A stretch of DNA of 64,000 bases from Nereocystis luetkeana (lineage: Eukaryota; Sar; Phaeophyceae; Laminariales; Laminariaceae): assembly GCA_031213475.1 (NCBI GenBank), contig JARUPZ010000017.1:10905561-10969560 (forward strand). The letters run 5' to 3'. The first letter of the stretch is position 1. The number at the start of each line of letters is the position of its first letter. This document shows, in pieces, positions 34,655 through 64,000 of the stretch. The notes under the pieces are model-generated. The model had not been told where the DNA came from and did not search any database. It was given only the letters and a program-made list of their open reading frames with translations. A program made the position numbers and the translations under genes.

Positions 34655-35236
34655 ATGAGAGCTACGTACTCCTACGCTGCTCACTGCTTAGCTACCCCTA
34701 TGGTTGCACGCGTCCGCGCCTGCTGTAAATGTTTGTGCAAGACATTTGGTAAATACCCACTACTCCAACCGCCCGGGCTGCGTCGTGTGGCCGAATACAA
34801 ATTTTGCAAGTGGATTACGTTTACACAATGTCCCGCTCGTTGCTGCATTGTTTGTCTGTACCAATATACCTACCGTACCATGCAACATTATCCTAGTATA
34901 CCTGGTACTGCCCTACATTCGGTTTGTATAGCACTGGTATACCTGGTATGCGCAGCATATCGTCCTTGTAAAGTTGTGTTGATCCGGGTAGCACACAGGG
35001 GAGCTACGAAACTACTGTATATCCCTATAAAGAGCGTGGACGGAAAGCAGAAGACGTGCGAACGGTTGACCTCACAATTTATCAAATTGAGTATCAACTG
35101 CTCCAACAGAAGTACATCGTATTCCCCATGTACAAACACCACACCTGCTCCAACAGTAGTTCATCGTATTCCCCATGTACAAACACCACAATATGAATGG
35201 AATACTATAGGGCCACGCGATTTCGCAGGTATGTAA
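34655..35236 (+). CDS. unrecognised 193-codon open frame
   Basis: A Cys- and Tyr-rich frame with no recognisable domain. It spans two TACCTGGTA palindromes (34899, 34940) and an internal 47-bp tandem duplication. The duplication changes the frame between copies because 47 is not a multiple of three, which argues against coding constraint. Probably a chance frame. Confidence 0.1.
   Translation: MRATYSYAAHCLATPMVARVRACCKCLCKTFGKYPLLQPPGLRRVAEYKFCKWITFTQCPARCCIVCLYQYTYRTMQHYPSIPGTALHSVCIALVYLVCAAYRPCKVVLIRVAHRGATKLLYIPIKSVDGKQKTCERLTSQFIKLSINCSNRSTSYSPCTNTTPAPTVVHRIPHVQTPQYEWNTIGPRDFAGM
35098..35190. repeat. 47-bp tandem duplication
   Basis: Two copies beginning CTGCTCCAACAG at 35098 and 35145 share CATCGTATTCCCCATG and TACAAACACCACA with only a couple of differences, so the duplication is young. 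Confidence 0.9.
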
Positions 35237-39568: not shown

Positions 39569-42500
39569 TTCTTCGTAACGACTGAGACGCGTATGTGGCT
39601 TTCTCCCGACTGGAGGCCGCTACAACTGTTGCAAAGCTAGGGCTCGTTGATGGGCGGAGGTGCTGCTCTTCGCGCATGCAGCCAAGGGTAGCAAGCTGGC
39701 CACTGTCGAAAAAAACGTATTTCAGTGTGATAGGCACACGCTTCTGCAGCACCGGCGGCCGTTGTTTAAGCTTGATACCTGGTGTTGTGTATCTCGTATG
39801 CACATACGAATACAGTCACGTAAAAATAAGCACAAACCTACCAGGTATATATATAGTACTGTTTGTCCCTTTTTCCAGGACATTCAACAGTGCTAAGGTA
39901 CCTCCTCGCCGAAATTAACACACATCATTTTTCGTTTCTACGAACAGTACATTCAGGCCGTCATGTGCACTGTCCTCTCTTCAATAATTCAAGCGGGTGG
40001 GAACGATGCTGTAAGTCTAAGCAAACCACCGCAAAAACACGGCGACGACGCAGATACAAGCACAGCAACTCCGTAGGGTGTTTTACTCACATATTGTCTA
40101 CTACCAGGAGGGTGTTACGTAAACAAGGAATTATACGAGAGTCGTGGTAGTGTCTACAATACTCAATGAAAATAATAGCGGTGTATCATGTGGTCAGCGC
40201 GGAGCCACGTGATGTGATGACCTGTACATATGGTACCTGGGATACCAAGGTTAAGGAGTGGACTACATAAACACAGCCAAAACCCAACTAATGTTTTGCT
40301 TGTCGCGTGGTCTGTCTTGCTACCTCGGTGTCAAAACTGCGATCCGTTTATGCTACAGCCTACCGAAGCTATTGAACAAACAGGGCGTTTTGGGACTCCG
40401 TCCCTTGTTTTCAGTTCTTCATCTGGGATCCATGTTTGCCTTGATACGTGTCTCTAATGAATCGAGGTTGGAAGTAGTACTGTCGTACTTTATATATCAA
40501 CTCTCTGAACATTTTTTTTCTGTCTCACAGTCGGGCCACACATTCAGTTTCTCTCTAAGATAGCCATTCCAAGTGGTGATGCACAAACATTAAGCTCGCG
40601 TGTTGACCGAGTGGTCCAGCAGGTATACGTTTAAAGTTCGTGGAATATCGTTGACATAGTAAACGTCATCTCCGGGGTCCCCCCCTCGATAAACGCTACT
40701 AATGTCTAGAGGCATGCTATCGTAATTATTCGTATTTGTTTTTTTTAATCCTCCGGCGGATTGGTAAAAATAAAGCTTAAGCTCACCACACTTCCACGTT
40801 CGTGTCGTGTGTCAATTTAGCCCAGTTGGGCACGTTGACCCGACCTGACCCCCGAGAGGAGCAGGTGCGGTGGAGATAGCCACCCGGGAGAGTCATCTCT
40901 CCCGGGTAGTGTGGGACTGACAATCCAGCGCACGCGCTCGAGAAGAGCAATTTACTAAGTCGACGAGATTACGACACATACATCCTTTCCTTGTTGGTTA
41001 GCACTACTACCTGCCTAAGACTATGCCGCCCTTCGGTAGGGTATAATTCATTTCAGGTCCCCATCAAACCGAATACGTGGTGACGCACGCACAATCACGC
41101 ATTAACCCCTTCACCACTGTATTTCCTATATTTGGGACGAAACACTATGATACAAGTCGTTTGCCCCCAAAGCGGGACTGCAGTATGAAAAGGTTTAAGC
41201 TGGCGTAAATATAAATAGGTTACACAGAATGAAGATATCCGGATGTATCATAGGTGGATTGTCACGGTAGATGGCAGATAATTCTTGCCGATTTGAGGCT
41301 CATTCCATTTTGCTCCCAGGCTATTCTGCTATGAGGCCGCCGCTGCTGATGCTGATGCTACTTGTGTTGCTTGCTGAAGCGTGCTGCTGTCTTGCTCTAG
41401 CAGCCATTTATGTGTGGACTCCGTTCGTAGTGATGGCGATGTAAACGAGTAGCCGTAGTATTACCGCTCCCCGATCTGCCCGTGCTACCTATTCCTTCCG
41501 GTATAGCCACGTAGTCTGTTTTGGGATCATGGTGATATTTCGGGGAAATAGAAGGGCATCAGCAGCAATATTCTGCTGTTTTCATATGCTGCTTGAAATA
41601 CGCAACGCATGTTTCTGGATCTAATCAACCCCCCTCAATCGCAGTGCGTTCCCTGTTTCATACCTCGTTGTTGGCGCGCTGCTGTAAGAAGTGTCGACCA
41701 TGGCCCAGTCCTCCATCGACACCCGCCTTGTACACCCCTGGCATAAACCCCCTCATCAAACGGCTCTTCGATGGGTGTCAGCGTGTGGTGGGCTGGGTTG
41801 TTGAAAATTAAAGTTGGCCGGGGTCCGATTCCGAGTCAGCGAGCAAGCGATGCCGTGGTGGCGCCTGGGCCAGCGCCAGGGCGTTGCTAGTCGATGGGCA
41901 AGGCCTGTATAAATCATCTATATTTTTACTTTACCTACCCTGTGCTCGCAGGATGGACTGGGCTTCCACAGCCTGATCGCTTCTTTCGTTCTAGCTATGA
42001 TTAAGTCTGACAAGTCCTGGATTCATATCGTAGTACAAAAAAATGATTCCTTAGATTGGGTCACAACTTTGTCAGTCGAGATAACTCCGGATGGGTAGTT
42101 CACGAAACCAATGTATAACAGAGCGATCGTTGTGAAGAGTAGGGATGGCGTACAAGCTTGGTGTAAGTCATACTCGCCCTGCACTGCCCTGCGATGCATT
42201 GTTGAATGTCGCGATGAAAGGTGTTTCATGCCATTTTGTTCGTCACGTGTTGCTCACCCCAAACAGGAAGACTTGGCAACCATTTCACGATTGCATCGCG
42301 GTTCTTGTCTCTTGGCTACTGCTGCAAGGCCAAGCTGGTGAGACGATGAAATACGATGCGTCCATATTTCGGTCAGCGAGAGTTGACAGTAAATAAGTTC
42401 TGACGAATTTGGTCGTGGAACGTTATCAGATGTAGCGAGACAGGTTTACCAACCACGTACCAGTAGATTGCCAGCTTTGATATTTCGCGAGAGGCGTGCT

Positions 42501-47033: not shown

Positions 47034-47225
47034 CGAACGGCCCGACCGAACGGGAACAAATACAAGGTAGCAGATTATTTTATGAAGATGGACACCACCG
47101 AAGTGGACGTGGACAACAATTTGCCGTGGCGAACGGCCCGACCGAACGGGAACAAATACCAGGTAGCAGATTATTTTATGAAGATGGACACCACCGAAGT
47201 GGACGTGGACAACAATTTGCCGTGG
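47034..47225. repeat. 96-bp tandem duplication
   Basis: Two copies (47034-47129 and 47130-47225) differ at one base: TACAAGGTA in the first, TACCAGGTA in the second. The period is a multiple of three and the plus strand stays open through both copies (KMDTTEVDVDNNLPW, then NGNKYQVADYF repeated), ending at 47411. The duplication is recent. The frame is not recognised. Confidence 0.95.
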
Positions 47226-47310
47226 CATGTCGATGTGCAAAAGATGCCGTTCGTGCCGATTCGGCTGGCGGGGACCAGGTCTCTGCATGGACCCAATCAC
47301 GTTATTTTAC

Positions 47311-47328
47311 TTAGGGTTACCCTAACCC
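47311..47328. repeat. inverted telomeric insertion between direct repeats
   Basis: TTAGGGTTA followed directly by CCCTAACCC, flanked by exact TTATTTTAC copies at 47302-47310 and 47329-47337. The match extends to 11 of 12 if the next three bases are included. Confidence 0.85.
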
Positions 47329-47337
47329 TTATTTTAC

Positions 47338-49094: not shown

Positions 49095-49296
49095 ATATTA
49101 TCTGGATGTTTTCTATACTTATTTCATTTGGTTACAAGAGTTTTCGTTTGAACATGTCGTCGTTCCATGGGGTTAGGGTTAGGGTTAGGGTTAGGGTTAG
49201 GGTTAGTCTAACCCTAACCCTATATTATCTGGATGTTTTCTACACTTATTTCATTTGGTTACAAGAGTTTTCGTTTGAACATGTCGTCGTTCCATG
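49095..49296. repeat. 75-bp target duplication around telomeric repeats
   Basis: 49095-49169 and 49222-49296 are 75-bp direct copies with a single difference (CTATACTT against CTACACTT). They flank a 52-bp telomeric insertion. Confidence 0.98.
49170..49221. repeat. inverted telomeric insertion
   Basis: About five and a half GGGTTA units, then a switch at TTAGTCTAA to two CCCTAA units, so the insertion can fold into a hairpin with a very small loop. Confidence 0.97.
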
Positions 49297-50328: not shown

Positions 50329-53300
50329 TCATTTAACGTGGTCCCTCTCCCCCCCCTTCCTGGCATTAGTCCCAACGGCGTGTTGGATCAATTTCTGCGC
50401 ATGTTGTACCTCAAGCCTTCGTCGTTTCGCTTCATGTTTCTTCTCCTTCATGAACGAGCGCTTCATGTGACGCTCCACCGTTTCTTCAACACAACTCAAC
50501 ACTTTATGGACTTCGTCGCTGCCAGCGTCTATTGCTGATTCTCGATGGGCAAGTTGAACAACGACCAATCGGGTTCGGGACAACCCATCAAGTCCTCCTC
50601 TTGCCCTCCCAAGAAGCCCTCCGCCCCCCCAGTTCCCCAAACATTACTCATTGGGGTAGCCTTTCGTTACGTATAGGGGCGACGAACCCCGCGAAAAGTA
50701 TCCTCCGCTTTCGAACCGTCGTTACGACGTTCTCACAGCCAGATTTGTCTAGTGCGTCTGCGTATGAAAGTATATGGTAGCCGTGGCGACATCTGTTTTC
50801 CATCCGATCCATCAGAGACGCAATCGGTGGGGATCTATCCGCAGTATGGTGAGATGGGCAATGAGGACGGTCCACGTGGCACACCCGTATATCATGGTAT
50901 GAATTACCTCGGTGTTGAGCATCCGTACTTTGAGCCGGAGCGGTGCGGTGGGCTGGTCGTACAGTGGCAAACTACACCGTCTTTAAGGTAGGTTGGCTAG
51001 CCGGGCGAGCCGGTTGATTTCAGCTTTGAGGCCGGCGTTCTCGTATACAGTTGCCCCAAGGTCCACAAACTTGGTAGTTTGTTTATACACCTGGCCGTCG
51101 TTCCTCAGTAGCGAAAATGACTCTGTACATACGTTTTGCCACCAGCCACACATGGCCTCCGTCTTGGCTTCCGAAACGATCAATCCGAATGAACGACATA
51201 CTGCAACGATGTCTGCCGTTATCTTCGCAAGGCTGTTACTTGATCTGTATGCGATGCCCGCGACGTCTGCGTACTGCAATCATCAGACCATTCTAGGTTC
51301 CACCCCTGCTTCCTGGGGGTTATCTCGCTCTTTCTCCGGCCGAGTCACCCCACGATAGGGGTTGCACTTGGTGGGCCCGAGGTTTCTGACCAATTGAGTC
51401 CGTTAAGTGAAGAACTACCAGTTAGAACGAAATGTTTACTCGTATATTCGTCTTAGGACTAGCGCATAAAAATGCCGGTCGGGCGGCACAAACGAATTTC
51501 TTCCAAGTATTGTATCGAGTGAGATACTGAGCTCCTAATGTGAGGGACTCAGAAACGTCTGGTGCACCTCCACCGTGGGATGGCTCGGCCTCCCTCGCGC
51601 TTCCTACCCCCCCCGCGTTTCCTCTTTCACCACATCTGCATTCACCCTAACCGCTCCACCGCCACACGGAGTACGGGAGAAAATGACTGTTGAACGACAA
51701 CGGTGCGAGCAGTCATCCATGTCGTAGGCCCAGCATCACGCTGAACCAATCTAAATATTCGCCATTGTCTGTCCGGATGCGCGCAAGCCTTCGGTCGTGG
51801 ATGTGGTACGCCAAATAACCGCGAGCGTCTTTGGTGGTACGCTGAATCGAGCGAGCACGGTTCACAAGACAGTCCGGGCGACTGAATCGTATGCTTTGGT
51901 GAGATCAACAAAAGGTATAGAGGGGTACTCGTCTTTCGTGCCACTTCGTGAGGCCGGTGAATCACGAAGATCATATCAATCGTCGACCGTTGTGGTCTAA
52001 AGCCGCACGGGTCCTCTGGTAATATATCCTCCCGTTCCCAGTAACTGCTAAGACGATTGGCGATTATCTTCAGGAGGACCTTGCCAGCGTGTGCTACGAG
52101 CGAGATGCCACGCTAGTTACCGCACTCTGTCCGGTCCTTCTTCTTTTTTAGCACTATCGTCGGGGCATCGTTCCACTCTTGCCGTACGCCCCCGCCCTCG
52201 CGCATGACGATCCCAATGGTGAATATTTGTTTTGGTGTACGGCGGTTTCTATCGCGATCTCAATCTAAGGCGAGTTTGACTAGTTCAGCGGGAAGCTCAT
52301 CGGCTCCGACAGCCGTTAGGGGTGACATTCTCTTGATGGTTTCTTCCACCGCAAATTTTGAAGGTAGAGTACCGAGAGATGTGCACGCGGACCATACCTT
52401 GAACTATTCGACGATACCTGGGCCGAGCGTTGGCGACTTAGCGTTGAGCAAATAACTGAACCACTGTACCCACCGATTGTGAATGGGCCCCGCGTCACCA
52501 CACCAACTGCCCTCTGCATATTTCATGTATTGAGAGCTGCCAATTTCTCCCCTCGAAATACGTCCCCTTGTGGTGCTAGTAGAAACCAGGTTGGTCCCCA
52601 TCGTTGAAGCACACCTTGGGTTGACTGAAAAAATCCTCGGAGAAGCTCACCACTGCCTCGATTTTCACGCGCTTTAGGCGTTTCGCAGCTGCTTTCATGG
52701 ACTTTCTGAGTTGGCTCTTGCTTAAACCCGCGCGAAATACATCTCTCTCGGCTTCCCTCTCTTACCACACCGCAAGAATTTTCGCCTTCGTCTCCTCGCT
52801 AGCACAACACCCCGCCGTTGTTTTACTTCGCTTTGCACGTGTCGCGATGTTAGCAGCCGTGGACGGAATCGCTTCAGTGAACACCATTGCCATACCATCC
52901 TCATCCGTGCCAGGGGGTACGGATGTGCATCTCTTAATGAATGTCCTCCGCAGATAGGGTTTGCCGTCAGTTGTTGAGAGTCGGTGGCCCGTCTGCCCTT
53001 TATTACTCCCTTTCGCGGTCAGGGGCAAAGCGTCCAAGCAGCTGGATGCCAGGCGCTTCAGCAACAGTGCTGTGCGGCCCAGACAGAATGTTTGTCACGG
53101 ATTGATTTGTGACTATAAGTCAGAGCGTACGCAACGACAAAGGAAATCCCATTCGATTTCATGTTCAAGTTTAGTCGCACCTTAATAAGTCGAGAGCACG
53201 GATGTACTCCACAGCCAGTCCACCCTTCTCGAAATCCTGCAAGAAGTGAAACCTGCTGCTGGGAATCCATCCTGGTCATTCCCTCTCGTCTCTTGGCACC

Positions 53301-59800: not shown

Positions 59801-59833
59801 GGTTAGGGTTAGGGTTAGGGTTAGGGTTAGGGC
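59801..59833 (+). repeat. interstitial telomeric repeat near the chromosome end
   Basis: Five TTAGGG units in telomere orientation, about 310 bp internal to the main telomere. Confidence 0.95.
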
Positions 59834-59956
59834 TCTAAGCCTATTTGCAAAAAAGACTAAAGGTCGATTATTTGAGACTAAGGTCGTTTCAAATAGGCCT
59901 AGAGGCACTTCAACTAAGTCTTTGCCCCTAAAAAAAGGTTTTCGCCCCTATTTCAC

Positions 59957-60146: not shown

Positions 60147-63100
60147 TAGGGTTAGGGTTAGGGGTTAGGGTTAGGGGTTAGGGTTAGGGTTAGGGGTTAG
60201 GGTTAGGGTTAGGGTTAGGGTTAGGGTTAGGGTTAGGGTTAGGGTTAGGGTTAGGGTTAGGGTTAGGGTTAGGGTTAGGGTTAGGGTTAGGGTTAGGGTT
60301 AGGGTTAGGGTTAGGGTTAGGGTTAGGGTTAGGGTTGGGGTTAGGGTTAGGGTTGGGGTTAGGGTTAGGGTTAGGGTTAGGGTTAGGGTTAGGGTTAGGG
60401 TTAGGGTTAGGGTTAGGGTTAGGGTTAGGGTTAGGGTTAGGGTTAGGGTTAGGGTTAGGGTTAGGGTTAGGGTTAGGGTTAGGGTTAGGGTTAGGGTTAG
60501 GGTTAGGGTTAGGGTTAGGGTTAGGGTTAGGGTTAGGGTTAGGGTTAGGGTTAGGGTTAGGGTTAGGGTTAGGGTTAGGGTTAGGGTTAGGGTTAGGGTT
60601 AGGGTTAGGGTTAGGGTTAGGGTTAGGGTTAGGGTTAGGGTTAGGGTTAGGGTTAGGGTTAGGGTTAGGGTTAGGGTTAGGGTTAGGGTTAGGGTTAGGG
60701 TTAGGGTTAGGGTTAGGGTTAGGGTTAGGGTTAGGGTTAGGGTTAGGGTTAGGGTTAGGGTTAGGGTTAGGGTTAGGGTTAGGGTTAGGGTTAGGGTTAG
60801 GGTTAGGGTTAGGGTTAGGGTTAGGGTTAGGGTTAGGGTTAGGGTTAGGGTTAGGGTTAGGGTTAGGGTTAGGGTTAGGGTTAGGGTTAGGGTTAGGGTT
60901 AGGGTTAGGGTTAGGGTTAGGGTTAGGGTTAGGGTTAGGGTTAGGGTTAGGGTTAGGGTTAGGGTTAGGGTTAGGGTTAGGGTTAGGGTTAGGGTTAGGG
61001 TTAGGGTTAGGGTTAGGGTTAGGGTTAGGGTTAGGGTTAGGGTTAGGGTTAGGGTTAGGGTTAGGGTTAGGGTTAGGGTTAGGGTTAGGGTTAGGGTTAG
61101 GGTTAGGGTTAGGGTTAGGGTTAGGGTTAGGGTTAGGGTTAGGGTTAGGGTTAGGGTTAGGGTTAGGGTTAGGGTTAGGGTTAGGGTTAGGGTTAGGGTT
61201 AGGGTTAGGGTTAGGGTTAGGGTTAGGGTTAGGGTTAGGGTTAGGGTTAGGGTTAGGGTTAGGGTTAGGGTTAGGGTTAGGGTTAGGGTTAGGGTTAGGG
61301 TTAGGGTTAGGGTTAGGGTTAGGGTTAGGGTTAGGGTTAGGGTTAGGGTTAGGGTTAGGGTTAGGGTTAGGGTTAGGGTTAGGGTTAGGGTTAGGGTTAG
61401 GGTTAGGGTTAGGGTTAGGGTTAGGGTTAGGGTTAGGGTTAGGGTTAGGGTTAGGGTTAGGGTTAGGGTTAGGGTTAGGGTTAGGGTTAGGGTTAGGGTT
61501 AGGGTTAGGGTTAGGGTTAGGGTTAGGGTTAGGGTTAGGGTTAGGGTTAGGGTTAGGGTTAGGGTTAGGGTTAGGGTTAGGGTTAGGGTTAGGGTTAGGG
61601 TTAGGGTTAGGGTTAGGGTTAGGGTTAGGGTTAGGGTTAGGGTTAGGGTTAGGGTTAGGGTTAGGGTTAGGGTTAGGGTTAGGGTTAGGGTTAGGGTTAG
61701 GGTTAGGGTTAGGGTTAGGGTTAGGGTTAGGGTTAGGGTTAGGGTTAGGGTTAGGGTTAGGGTTAGGGTTAGGGTTAGGGTTAGGGTTAGGGTTAGGGTT
61801 AGGGTTAGGGTTAGGGTTAGGGTTAGGGTTAGGGTTAGGGTTAGGGTTAGGGTTAGGGTTAGGGTTAGGGTTAGGGTTAGGGTTAGGGTTAGGGTTAGGG
61901 TTAGGGTTAGGGTTAGGGTTAGGGTTAGGGTTAGGGTTAGGGTTAGGGTTAGGGTTAGGGTTAGGGTTAGGGTTAGGGTTAGGGTTAGGGTTAGGGTTAG
62001 GGTTAGGGTTAGGGTTAGGGTTAGGGTTAGGGTTAGGGTTAGGGTTAGGGTTAGGGTTAGGGTTAGGGTTAGGGTTAGGGTTAGGGTTAGGGTTAGGGTT
62101 AGGGTTAGGGTTAGGGTTAGGGTTAGGGTTAGGGTTAGGGTTAGGGTTAGGGTTAGGGTTAGGGTTAGGGTTAGGGTTAGGGTTAGGGTTAGGGTTAGGG
62201 TTAGGGTTAGGGTTAGGGTTAGGGTTAGGGTTAGGGTTAGGGTTAGGGTTAGGGTTAGGGTTAGGGTTAGGGTTAGGGTTAGGGTTAGGGTTAGGGTTAG
62301 GGTTAGGGTTAGGGTTAGGGTTAGGGTTAGGGTTAGGGTTAGGGTTAGGGTTAGGGTTAGGGTTAGGGTTAGGGTTAGGGTTAGGGTTAGGGTTAGGGTT
62401 AGGGTTAGGGTTAGGGTTAGGGTTAGGGTTAGGGTTAGGGTTAGGGTTAGGGTTAGGGTTAGGGTTAGGGTTAGGGTTAGGGTTAGGGTTAGGGTTAGGG
62501 TTAGGGTTAGGGTTAGGGTTAGGGTTAGGGTTAGGGTTAGGGTTAGGGTTAGGGTTAGGGTTAGGGTTAGGGTTAGGGTTAGGGTTAGGGTTAGGGTTAG
62601 GGTTAGGGTTAGGGTTAGGGTTAGGGTTAGGGTTAGGGTTAGGGTTAGGGTTAGGGTTAGGGTTAGGGTTAGGGTTAGGGTTAGGGTTAGGGTTAGGGTT
62701 AGGGTTAGGGTTAGGGTTAGGGTTAGGGTTAGGGTTAGGGTTAGGGTTAGGGTTAGGGTTAGGGTTAGGGTTAGGGTTAGGGTTAGGGTTAGGGTTAGGG
62801 TTAGGGTTAGGGTTAGGGTTAGGGTTAGGGTTAGGGTTAGGGTTAGGGTTAGGGTTAGGGTTAGGGTTAGGGTTAGGGTTAGGGTTAGGGTTAGGGTTAG
62901 GGTTAGGGTTAGGGTTAGGGTTAGGGTTAGGGTTAGGGTTAGGGTTAGGGTTAGGGTTAGGGTTAGGGTTAGGGTTAGGGTTAGGGTTAGGGTTAGGGTT
63001 AGGGTTAGGGTTAGGGTTAGGGTTAGGGTTAGGGTTAGGGTTAGGGTTAGGGTTAGGGTTAGGGTTAGGGTTAGGGTTAGGGTTAGGGTTAGGGTTAGGG

Positions 63101-63430
63101 TTAGGGTTAGGGTTAGGGTTAGGGTTAGGGTTAGGGTTAGGGTTAGGGTTAGGGTTAGGGTTAGGGTTAGGGTTAGGGTTAGGGTTAGGGTTAGGGTTAG
63201 GGTTAGGGTTAGGGTTAGGGTTAGGGTTAGGGTTAGGGTTAGGGTTAGGGTTAGGGTTAGGGTTAGGGTTAGGGTTAGGGTTAGGGTTAGGGTTAGGGTT
63301 AGGGTTAGGGTTAGGGTTAGGGTTAGGGTTAGGGTTAGGGTTAGGGTTAGGGTTAGGGTTAGGGTTAGGGTTAGGGTTAGGGTTAGGGTTAGGGTTAGGG
63401 TTAGGGTTAGGGTTAGGGTTAGGGTTAGGG
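60147..63430 (+). repeat. telomere, (TTAGGG)n
   Basis: About 540 TTAGGG units. The proximal ~210 bp contain TTAGGGG variants and two TTGGGG variants (60335-60340 and 60353-60358). From about 60359 to 63430 I see an uninterrupted array of roughly 510 perfect units. The G-rich strand runs 5' to 3' towards the right edge, as required for a right-hand chromosome end extended by telomerase. The Leu-Gly open frame of over 1000 codons across it is only the translation of the repeat. Confidence 0.99.
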
Positions 63431-64000
63431 GTTAGGGGAGGGTAGGGTTAGGGTAGGGTTAGGTTAGGAGGGTTAGGGTAGGGGTTAGGGGTGGGGGTTG
63501 GGGTAGGGTGTAGGGTTAGGGTTAGGGGTTAGGGTTAGGTTAGGGGGTTAGGGTTAGGGTTGAGGGTGAGGGTGAGGGTTAGGGTGAGGGTTAGGGGGTA
63601 GGGTGAGGGTGAGGGGGTGGGGTTAGGGTTAGGGTTAGGGGGTAGGGGTAGGGTAGGGTTAGGGGTAGGGTTAGGGTTAGGGTTAGGGTTAGGGGTGGGG
63701 TAGGGGGTGGGTTAGGGTAGGGAGGTAGGGTGTGGGTTGGGGTAGGGTTAGGGGGAGGGTGGGGGAGGGGTGGGTAGGGTTGGGGTGAGGTGGTGGGTAG
63801 GGGGTAGGGTGAGGGGGTAGGGGTGGGGAGGGTTAGGAGGTGAGGGGCTGAGGGGAGGGGTAGGGGGTGGGGTGGGGGGTGGGTGGGCTTAGGGTGTGGG
63901 GAGGGGGTAGGGGTTGGGTAGGGGGAGGGGTGGGGGTGGGGTAGGGGGTGGGGTAGGGTGGGTAGGGGGTGGGGTGGGGGTGGGGTAGGGGGTGTGGGAG
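63431..64000 (+). repeat. degenerate G-rich telomere tail
   Basis: TTAGGG units become increasingly replaced by TTAGGGG, TAGGG, TGAGGG, GGTAGGGG and GTGGGG, with units of 4-9 bp. Nearly all bases are G, T or A, as expected for the telomeric G strand. The pattern is most simply explained by low-coverage or error-prone consensus at the contig end. Confidence 0.85.

Follow-up and report, generated by a model that had tools for sequence, protein, structure and literature searches.

Short telomeric insertions at double-strand breaks are established in mammals (PMC2246262, PMC7215372). In the available parts of these reports, target duplications were counted for rodents (6 of 130 loci) and primates (4 of 25 loci; PMC2246262) and for the horse (3 of 66 loci), where two more occurred in complex events and staggered breaks were proposed; a head-to-head telomeric case in the horse arose by a complex rearrangement with inversion (PMC7215372). 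The insertions described here are similar to those of primates, rodents and the horse in their internal telomeric repeats, break-type changes of the flanks, in-register bases and, at some loci, target duplications; however, unlike the mammalian insertions as presented in those parts, the inserts surveyed here are convergent, many carry target duplications, which reach 75 bp, and they lie mostly near contig ends. Head-to-head repeats are also present in the human 2q13 fusion-type interstitial telomere (PMC6410037, PMC7215372), but by these sources, in the parts available, that locus joins two chromosome ends, whereas the same target is found on both sides here.

A second comparison is offered by mouse and human cells, in which paired nicks that leave 3′ overhangs of 43, 47 and 54 nt result in tandem duplications through CST and polymerase alpha-primase, which are also responsible for fill-in at telomeres (PMC8355091). 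These duplications are alike in that a stagger of tens of nucleotides becomes a direct duplication after fill-in of two ends and end joining; however, no telomeric repeats are described between the copies in the available parts of that report (PMC8355091). Telomeric insertion at breaks is known in mammals, sometimes with target duplication, but the recurrent two-ended form appears to be new, because a search of the openly licensed literature yielded no description of convergent inserts that recur and carry target duplications. For rice, work by Vaughn and Bennetzen from 2014 is said, by its title, to concern natural insertions that form tandem duplications during patch-mediated break repair, and by title only it is similar in linking insertions and tandem duplications through the repair of breaks.

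Anatomy and surroundings of the 49095–49296 site

The window, that is, the whole stretch of 64,000 nucleotides that was analysed, forms the end of the 10.97-Mb contig C17 in an assembly of 465 Mb and 1987 contigs. Direct reading and a repeat search placed two direct copies of a 75-bp sequence at 49095–49169 and 49222–49296 (both on the + strand); the copies are identical at 74 of 75 positions, the single mismatch being T at 49116 and C at 49243. The 52-nt insert between them (49170–49221) consists of a G-strand arm of six GGGTTA repeats and one G (49170–49206, + strand, also recovered by the repeat search), one extra T where the two arms meet (49207), and a C-strand arm, CTAACCCTAACCCT (49208–49221), which represents G-strand repeats on the − strand. 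These observations bear out the preliminary description, which had reported 75-bp copies matching at 74 positions around a 52-bp telomeric insert. The site had an edge-anchored duplication score of 71, compared with a maximum of 8.5 among 714 mispaired flank pairs. A flank change of the break-repair type is thus present at the site in the form of the duplicated target.

The contig ends in a (TTAGGG)n array (60147–63753, + strand, repeat search), which is taken as the telomere of the chromosome; this places the site about 11 kb inward of the telomere and makes its exact telomeric repeats non-terminal. Between 63476 and 63998 the end of the array degenerates to G-rich GGGTGG/GGGGT, which could be variant telomere or sequencing noise. 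At 59801–59900, a one-sided telomeric array is bordered by the subtelomeric sequence gcctatttgcaaa, and the same sequence borders a one-sided array on another contig (L085, C9:13036411). A 13-nt word, ATATTATCTGGAT, abuts the C-strand telomeric repeat both at the right copy of the window site (49222) and at a one-sided insert on C9 (C9:30955, L042 at about 1609); this adjacency could be accidental, or it could reflect preferential breakage at the word or a repeat common to both places.

A second, smaller convergent insert of 18 nt, TTAGGGTTACCCTAACCC, is located at 47311–47328 of the window and is flanked by a 9-bp duplication, TTATTTTAC, at 47302–47310 and 47329–47337 (both on the + strand), as read from the sequence and the duplication score. 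About 80 bp to its left, a 96-bp unit is present in two tandem copies that are 98% alike (47034–47226), and a 47-bp unit is present in two tandem copies, 95% alike, at 35098–35190. A separate contig, C921, carries the same structure as the window; it is 100% identical to 37258–58721 across 21,464 bp, and because of this identity it was ruled out as an independent allele and treated as a redundant copy. Pfam searches of 10 chosen open reading frames of the window returned one reverse-transcriptase (RVT_1) fragment at 51642–52112 on the − strand (E 8.7e-4) and two weak matches, all below the curated cut-offs. Searches of the window with Rfam, at the gathering score, and with a tRNA scan gave no matches, and 601 bases of the window gave no match in a phage collection.

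Recurrence, orientation and flanking duplications

The same design recurs elsewhere in the genome, with unrelated target sequences. A genome-wide pattern search that required head-to-head telomeric arms of 12 nt or more returned 30 forward matches, which correspond to 16 distinct loci plus the redundant C921. The mirror, divergent pattern with 12-nt arms gave 5 forward matches at three places, on C3, C1336 and C40; one independent divergent locus remains, because the C1336 locus is the same DNA as the C3 locus (3037 of 3037 bases) and the C40 match sits between two convergent inserts. The ratio of convergent to divergent loci is therefore 16:1 (two-sided binomial p 0.0003). With 8-nt arms, at least 30 convergent loci among the matches listed (67 forward matches) were found against 8 divergent loci, kept out of 10 after C1336 and C40 were dropped (two-sided binomial p 0.0005); convergent inserts on later contigs were covered by the 12-nt-arm search only, and the list of convergent sites is incomplete.

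To score flanking duplications, a script compared the left and right flanks at the insert edges with a threshold score of at least 8, and flanks paired across different loci served as the control. The 34 convergent inserts scored comprised 32 from the pattern searches and two met in passing, at 47311 of the window and at C9:99766. Direct duplications were detected at 11 of the 34 inserts versus 1 of 714 mispaired controls, none of which reached 9, and at 9 of 32 when the two inserts met in passing, found with their duplications already in view, are set aside. Four additions by hand (C3:106695, C3:44923, C1:21832842 and C26), which were not blind, bring the count to 15 of 34; both figures are given because the automated scorer mis-clustered C3:106695 and C3:44923 and penalised fillers. 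No countable duplication was present at the remaining 19.

The automated duplications are those of the window site (75 bp), C22:95254 (56 bp, 9 mismatches), C5:13536273 (41 bp), C21:10604969 (25 bp), C5:146618 (18 bp, 1 mismatch), C12 (14 bp), C3:17220495 (14 bp, 1 mismatch), C10:12325775 (13 bp), C40 (11 bp), C9:99766 (11 bp) and 47311 of the window (9 bp). Among the hand-added sites, C3:106695 has an exact duplication of 18 bp, and at C3:44923 (14 bp), C1:21832842 (10 bp) and C26 (11 bp) the arm is separated from the copy by a filler of 6 to 12 nt; a 7-bp duplication at C9:30847 was left out of the 15. The duplications at convergent inserts therefore span 7 to 75 bp, with the window site at the upper extreme of this wide range. 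The expectation voiced beforehand, that a filled-in stagger is usually far shorter, holds in this genome, where the other convergent duplications measure 7 to 56 bp. Because the mismatch counts differ among the duplications, they suggest that the scars represent events of different ages. A candidate old duplication of 13 bp with 2 mismatches, seen by eye at C14:27755, was not counted.

In an earlier pass with a threshold of at least 10, duplications were scored at 7 of 15 convergent clusters and at none of the 24 one-sided, 3 divergent and 1 mixed clusters, with 0 of 334 controls; 2 of the 24 one-sided clusters scored 8 to 10 by way of local telomere-like words. At C5:146618 (L021) and C40:3131970 (L029) three copies of the duplicated word are separated by telomeric stretches, a pattern that would result if one place had been hit two times or if the unit had been duplicated afterwards. 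At C17:10814665 (L067), a convergent insert has a short inverted word, CTGCATT / AATGCAG, on its flanks, next to a direct word of 5 bp.

Position was assessed relative to contig ends, two of which, the start of C1 and the end of C17, were observed to carry terminal telomere arrays. Of 34 convergent inserts, 25 lie less than 160 kb from a contig end, a limit that was picked after the data had been seen. Automated duplications were present at 11 of these 25 near-end inserts versus 0 of 9 internal ones (p 0.017), or at 9 of 23 versus 0 of 9 without the two inserts met in passing (p 0.035); C26 is an internal convergent insert with a hand-added duplication. One-sided inserts were sampled from arrays whose initial TTAGGG is preceded by A or C (130 forward matches and 111 reverse matches, about 100 of them listed). 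From these, 8 internal sites were examined, together with 20 sites located no more than about 220 kb from an end, one of which turned out to be convergent. Duplications were found at 2 of 19 near-end one-sided inserts (C3:17184519, 11 bp; C10:83141, 40 bp with 1 mismatch; controls 0 of 395) and at 1 of 8 internal ones (21 bp with 3 mismatches; controls 0 of 180). One-sided telomeric additions with duplication exist, and the near-end comparison of convergent with one-sided inserts (p 0.02 with all 25 loci, 0.075 without the two met in passing) weakly suggests that duplications are rarer at one-sided inserts.

The junctions were then scored for target bases in register with the repeat at 17 duplications, 15 convergent and 2 one-sided, with the diverged C22:95254 left out; 27 of the 34 junction ends were scorable and 7 were unscorable. 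At least one base was in register at 19 of 27 ends and at least two at 10 of 27 (p 0.005 and 0.006, respectively), against null expectations of 43.75% and 15.6% that allow chance extension on both sides. The ends of the window site have 0 and 1 bases in register. This excess fits priming by telomerase, but it is modest. In the insert centre, the two arms meet exactly as GGGTTAACCC at 7 of the 16 convergent loci with 12-nt arms, whereas arms joined blindly would do so in 3 of 36 phases (p 1.6e-4); the search pattern may contribute in part to this excess. TA is the sole self-complementary dinucleotide in the telomeric repeat, and two G-strand tails could therefore anneal at TA.

Relatives with one copy and no insert

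For the 41-bp sister site at C5:13536273, nine dispersed relatives were listed, and three were examined; they are dispersed relatives in the same assembly, not alleles. In all three, the left flank leads into one copy, beyond which 20 to about 70 nt of the right flank align, and no telomeric insert or second copy was present in any of them. Taken alone, the right flank exceeds shuffled sequences in 1 of the 3 relatives. When anchored behind the copy in the three relatives, the right flank gave a gain that was matched by 4, 0 and 2 of 300 shuffled sequences and, among 200 foreign flanks, by 1, 0 and 1, and the telomeric insert placed behind the copy instead gave gains of 0, 0 and 3.

A relative of the window site is located at C13:7203896, which matches the left flank and about 52 nt of the 75-bp unit a single time, with an identity of about 74%; the last 20 nt of the unit are unaligned. 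The right flank of the window site continues beyond a separate insertion of about 350 nt, and in the alignment a further copy of the 75-bp unit at this position scored below shuffled sequence. By its alignment, the C13 locus may partly qualify as an insert-free, single-copy relative of the window site. The insertion of about 350 nt (L014, about 1889–2228) lies between CTACTTTC on both sides and contains a telomere-like stretch, GGTTAAGGTTAGGGTTAG.

Two-ended repair model and competing explanations

The window site is probably a repair scar, left by a staggered break, the action of telomerase on both 3′ ends, joining, and a fill-in that duplicated the stagger. Cuts on opposite strands about 75 nt apart would have produced a staggered chromosome break, and overhangs that are 3′ rather than 5′ are favoured, because telomerase requires a single-stranded 3′ end. 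Telomerase, as the presumed agent, would have added G-strand repeats to both exposed 3′ ends, which would account for the convergent repeats. The two tails would then have been joined by a pathway that may have used the TA overlap at the centre of GGGTTAACCC at some loci and that left one extra T at the window site, and fill-in of the single-stranded parts would have placed the 75-nt stagger on both sides of the insert, because both overhangs would have been copied. A staggered break had already been put forward in the preliminary description, together with the convergent orientation that it predicts; that reading gains support from the duplications at 11 of 34 inserts versus 1 of 714 controls, from the 16 convergent loci set against 1 independent divergent locus, from the single-copy relatives of the C5 site and, in part, from the C13 locus.

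A ready-made telomeric fragment, for example one derived from a telomere–telomere fusion, or two pieces end to end, could instead have been captured into a staggered break while its ends were being joined, with no telomerase acting there. Capture would also duplicate the stagger, the window ends have only 0 and 1 bases in register, and it is named alongside telomerase as a source of mammalian inserts in the available parts of one report (PMC2246262); however, captured fragments are expected in either orientation, yet the loci are convergent by 16:1, unless the donor was always a fusion joint, and in-register bases at 19 of 27 ends also speak against it, so that we regard this origin as unlikely. 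Less likely still, a retroelement endonuclease of the LINE or Penelope type might have cut the stagger, with telomerase or a related reverse transcriptase using both nicked 3′ ends in a manner resembling twin priming. Target-primed retroelements leave target duplications of variable length, as is the case here (7 to 75 bp), and the weak reverse-transcriptase fragment of the window could point in the same direction; however, the inserts read consist of telomeric repeat and short fillers and hold no element sequence, and an 8-mer comparison of 124 junction flanks, a crude test judged by eye, revealed no common cut-site motif, although the 13-nt word noted above is shared by C9 and the window. 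With no element-specific sequence in them, the inserts read do not fit target-primed retroelement insertions, and a DNA transposon with telomere-like inverted ends was rejected because the duplication length is not fixed.

The order of events could also be reversed, with slippage during replication or a template switch creating a tandem duplication whose junction later received telomeric repeats. Small tandem duplications are common in genomes, according to the available parts of one report (PMC8355091), and the words present three times at C5 and C40 indicate that repeated events at one place occur; however, two events would have to strike the same junction at many loci, and the three C5 relatives examined have one copy without the repeat, which makes this order very improbable. 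An assembly error is the least credible of these explanations: a single assembly was examined and C921 is redundant, but the 75-bp copies differ at one base, and the same design is present on many contigs. The recurrence with unrelated targets likewise led us to reject an assembly artefact as the main cause. An interstitial telomere formed by chromosome fusion was rejected for the window site, where the same 75 bp flank the insert on both sides, and for the C5 sister site, whose relatives have the left flank, one copy and the right flank joined.

The favoured reading, repair of a staggered break with telomerase acting on both ends, has a further, more doubtful extension, namely that a standing two-ended telomerase pathway might operate near the chromosome ends of this alga, in which staggered cuts behave as paired new telomeres that are extended and resealed. 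If true, telomerase would be a stagger-duplicating insertion machine, and the scars would record the length and place of natural staggered breaks. The debate over whether telomerase itself acts at ordinary breaks, or scraps of telomere are captured there, has drawn mainly on mammalian insertions. In a two-ended insert with a target duplication, a single scar retains the two broken ends together with the length of the overhang and the bases used for priming; scars of this kind make the model testable in a protist and serve as a natural record of staggered breaks near chromosome ends.

The genome holds 68 matches to the chlorophyll-binding-protein family and, on C4, two neighbouring stretches of a telomerase RNA-binding domain (29.6 and 28.6 bits; cut-off 25), one of which has an internal stop. 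Because of these matches, the genome is read as that of a photosynthetic eukaryote with a probable telomerase gene. Between 42185 and 70343 on C10, telomeric arrays are found at 42185, 49617, 55456, 62890 and 70325, mostly about 7.4 kb apart, and these are perhaps tandem subtelomeric segments.
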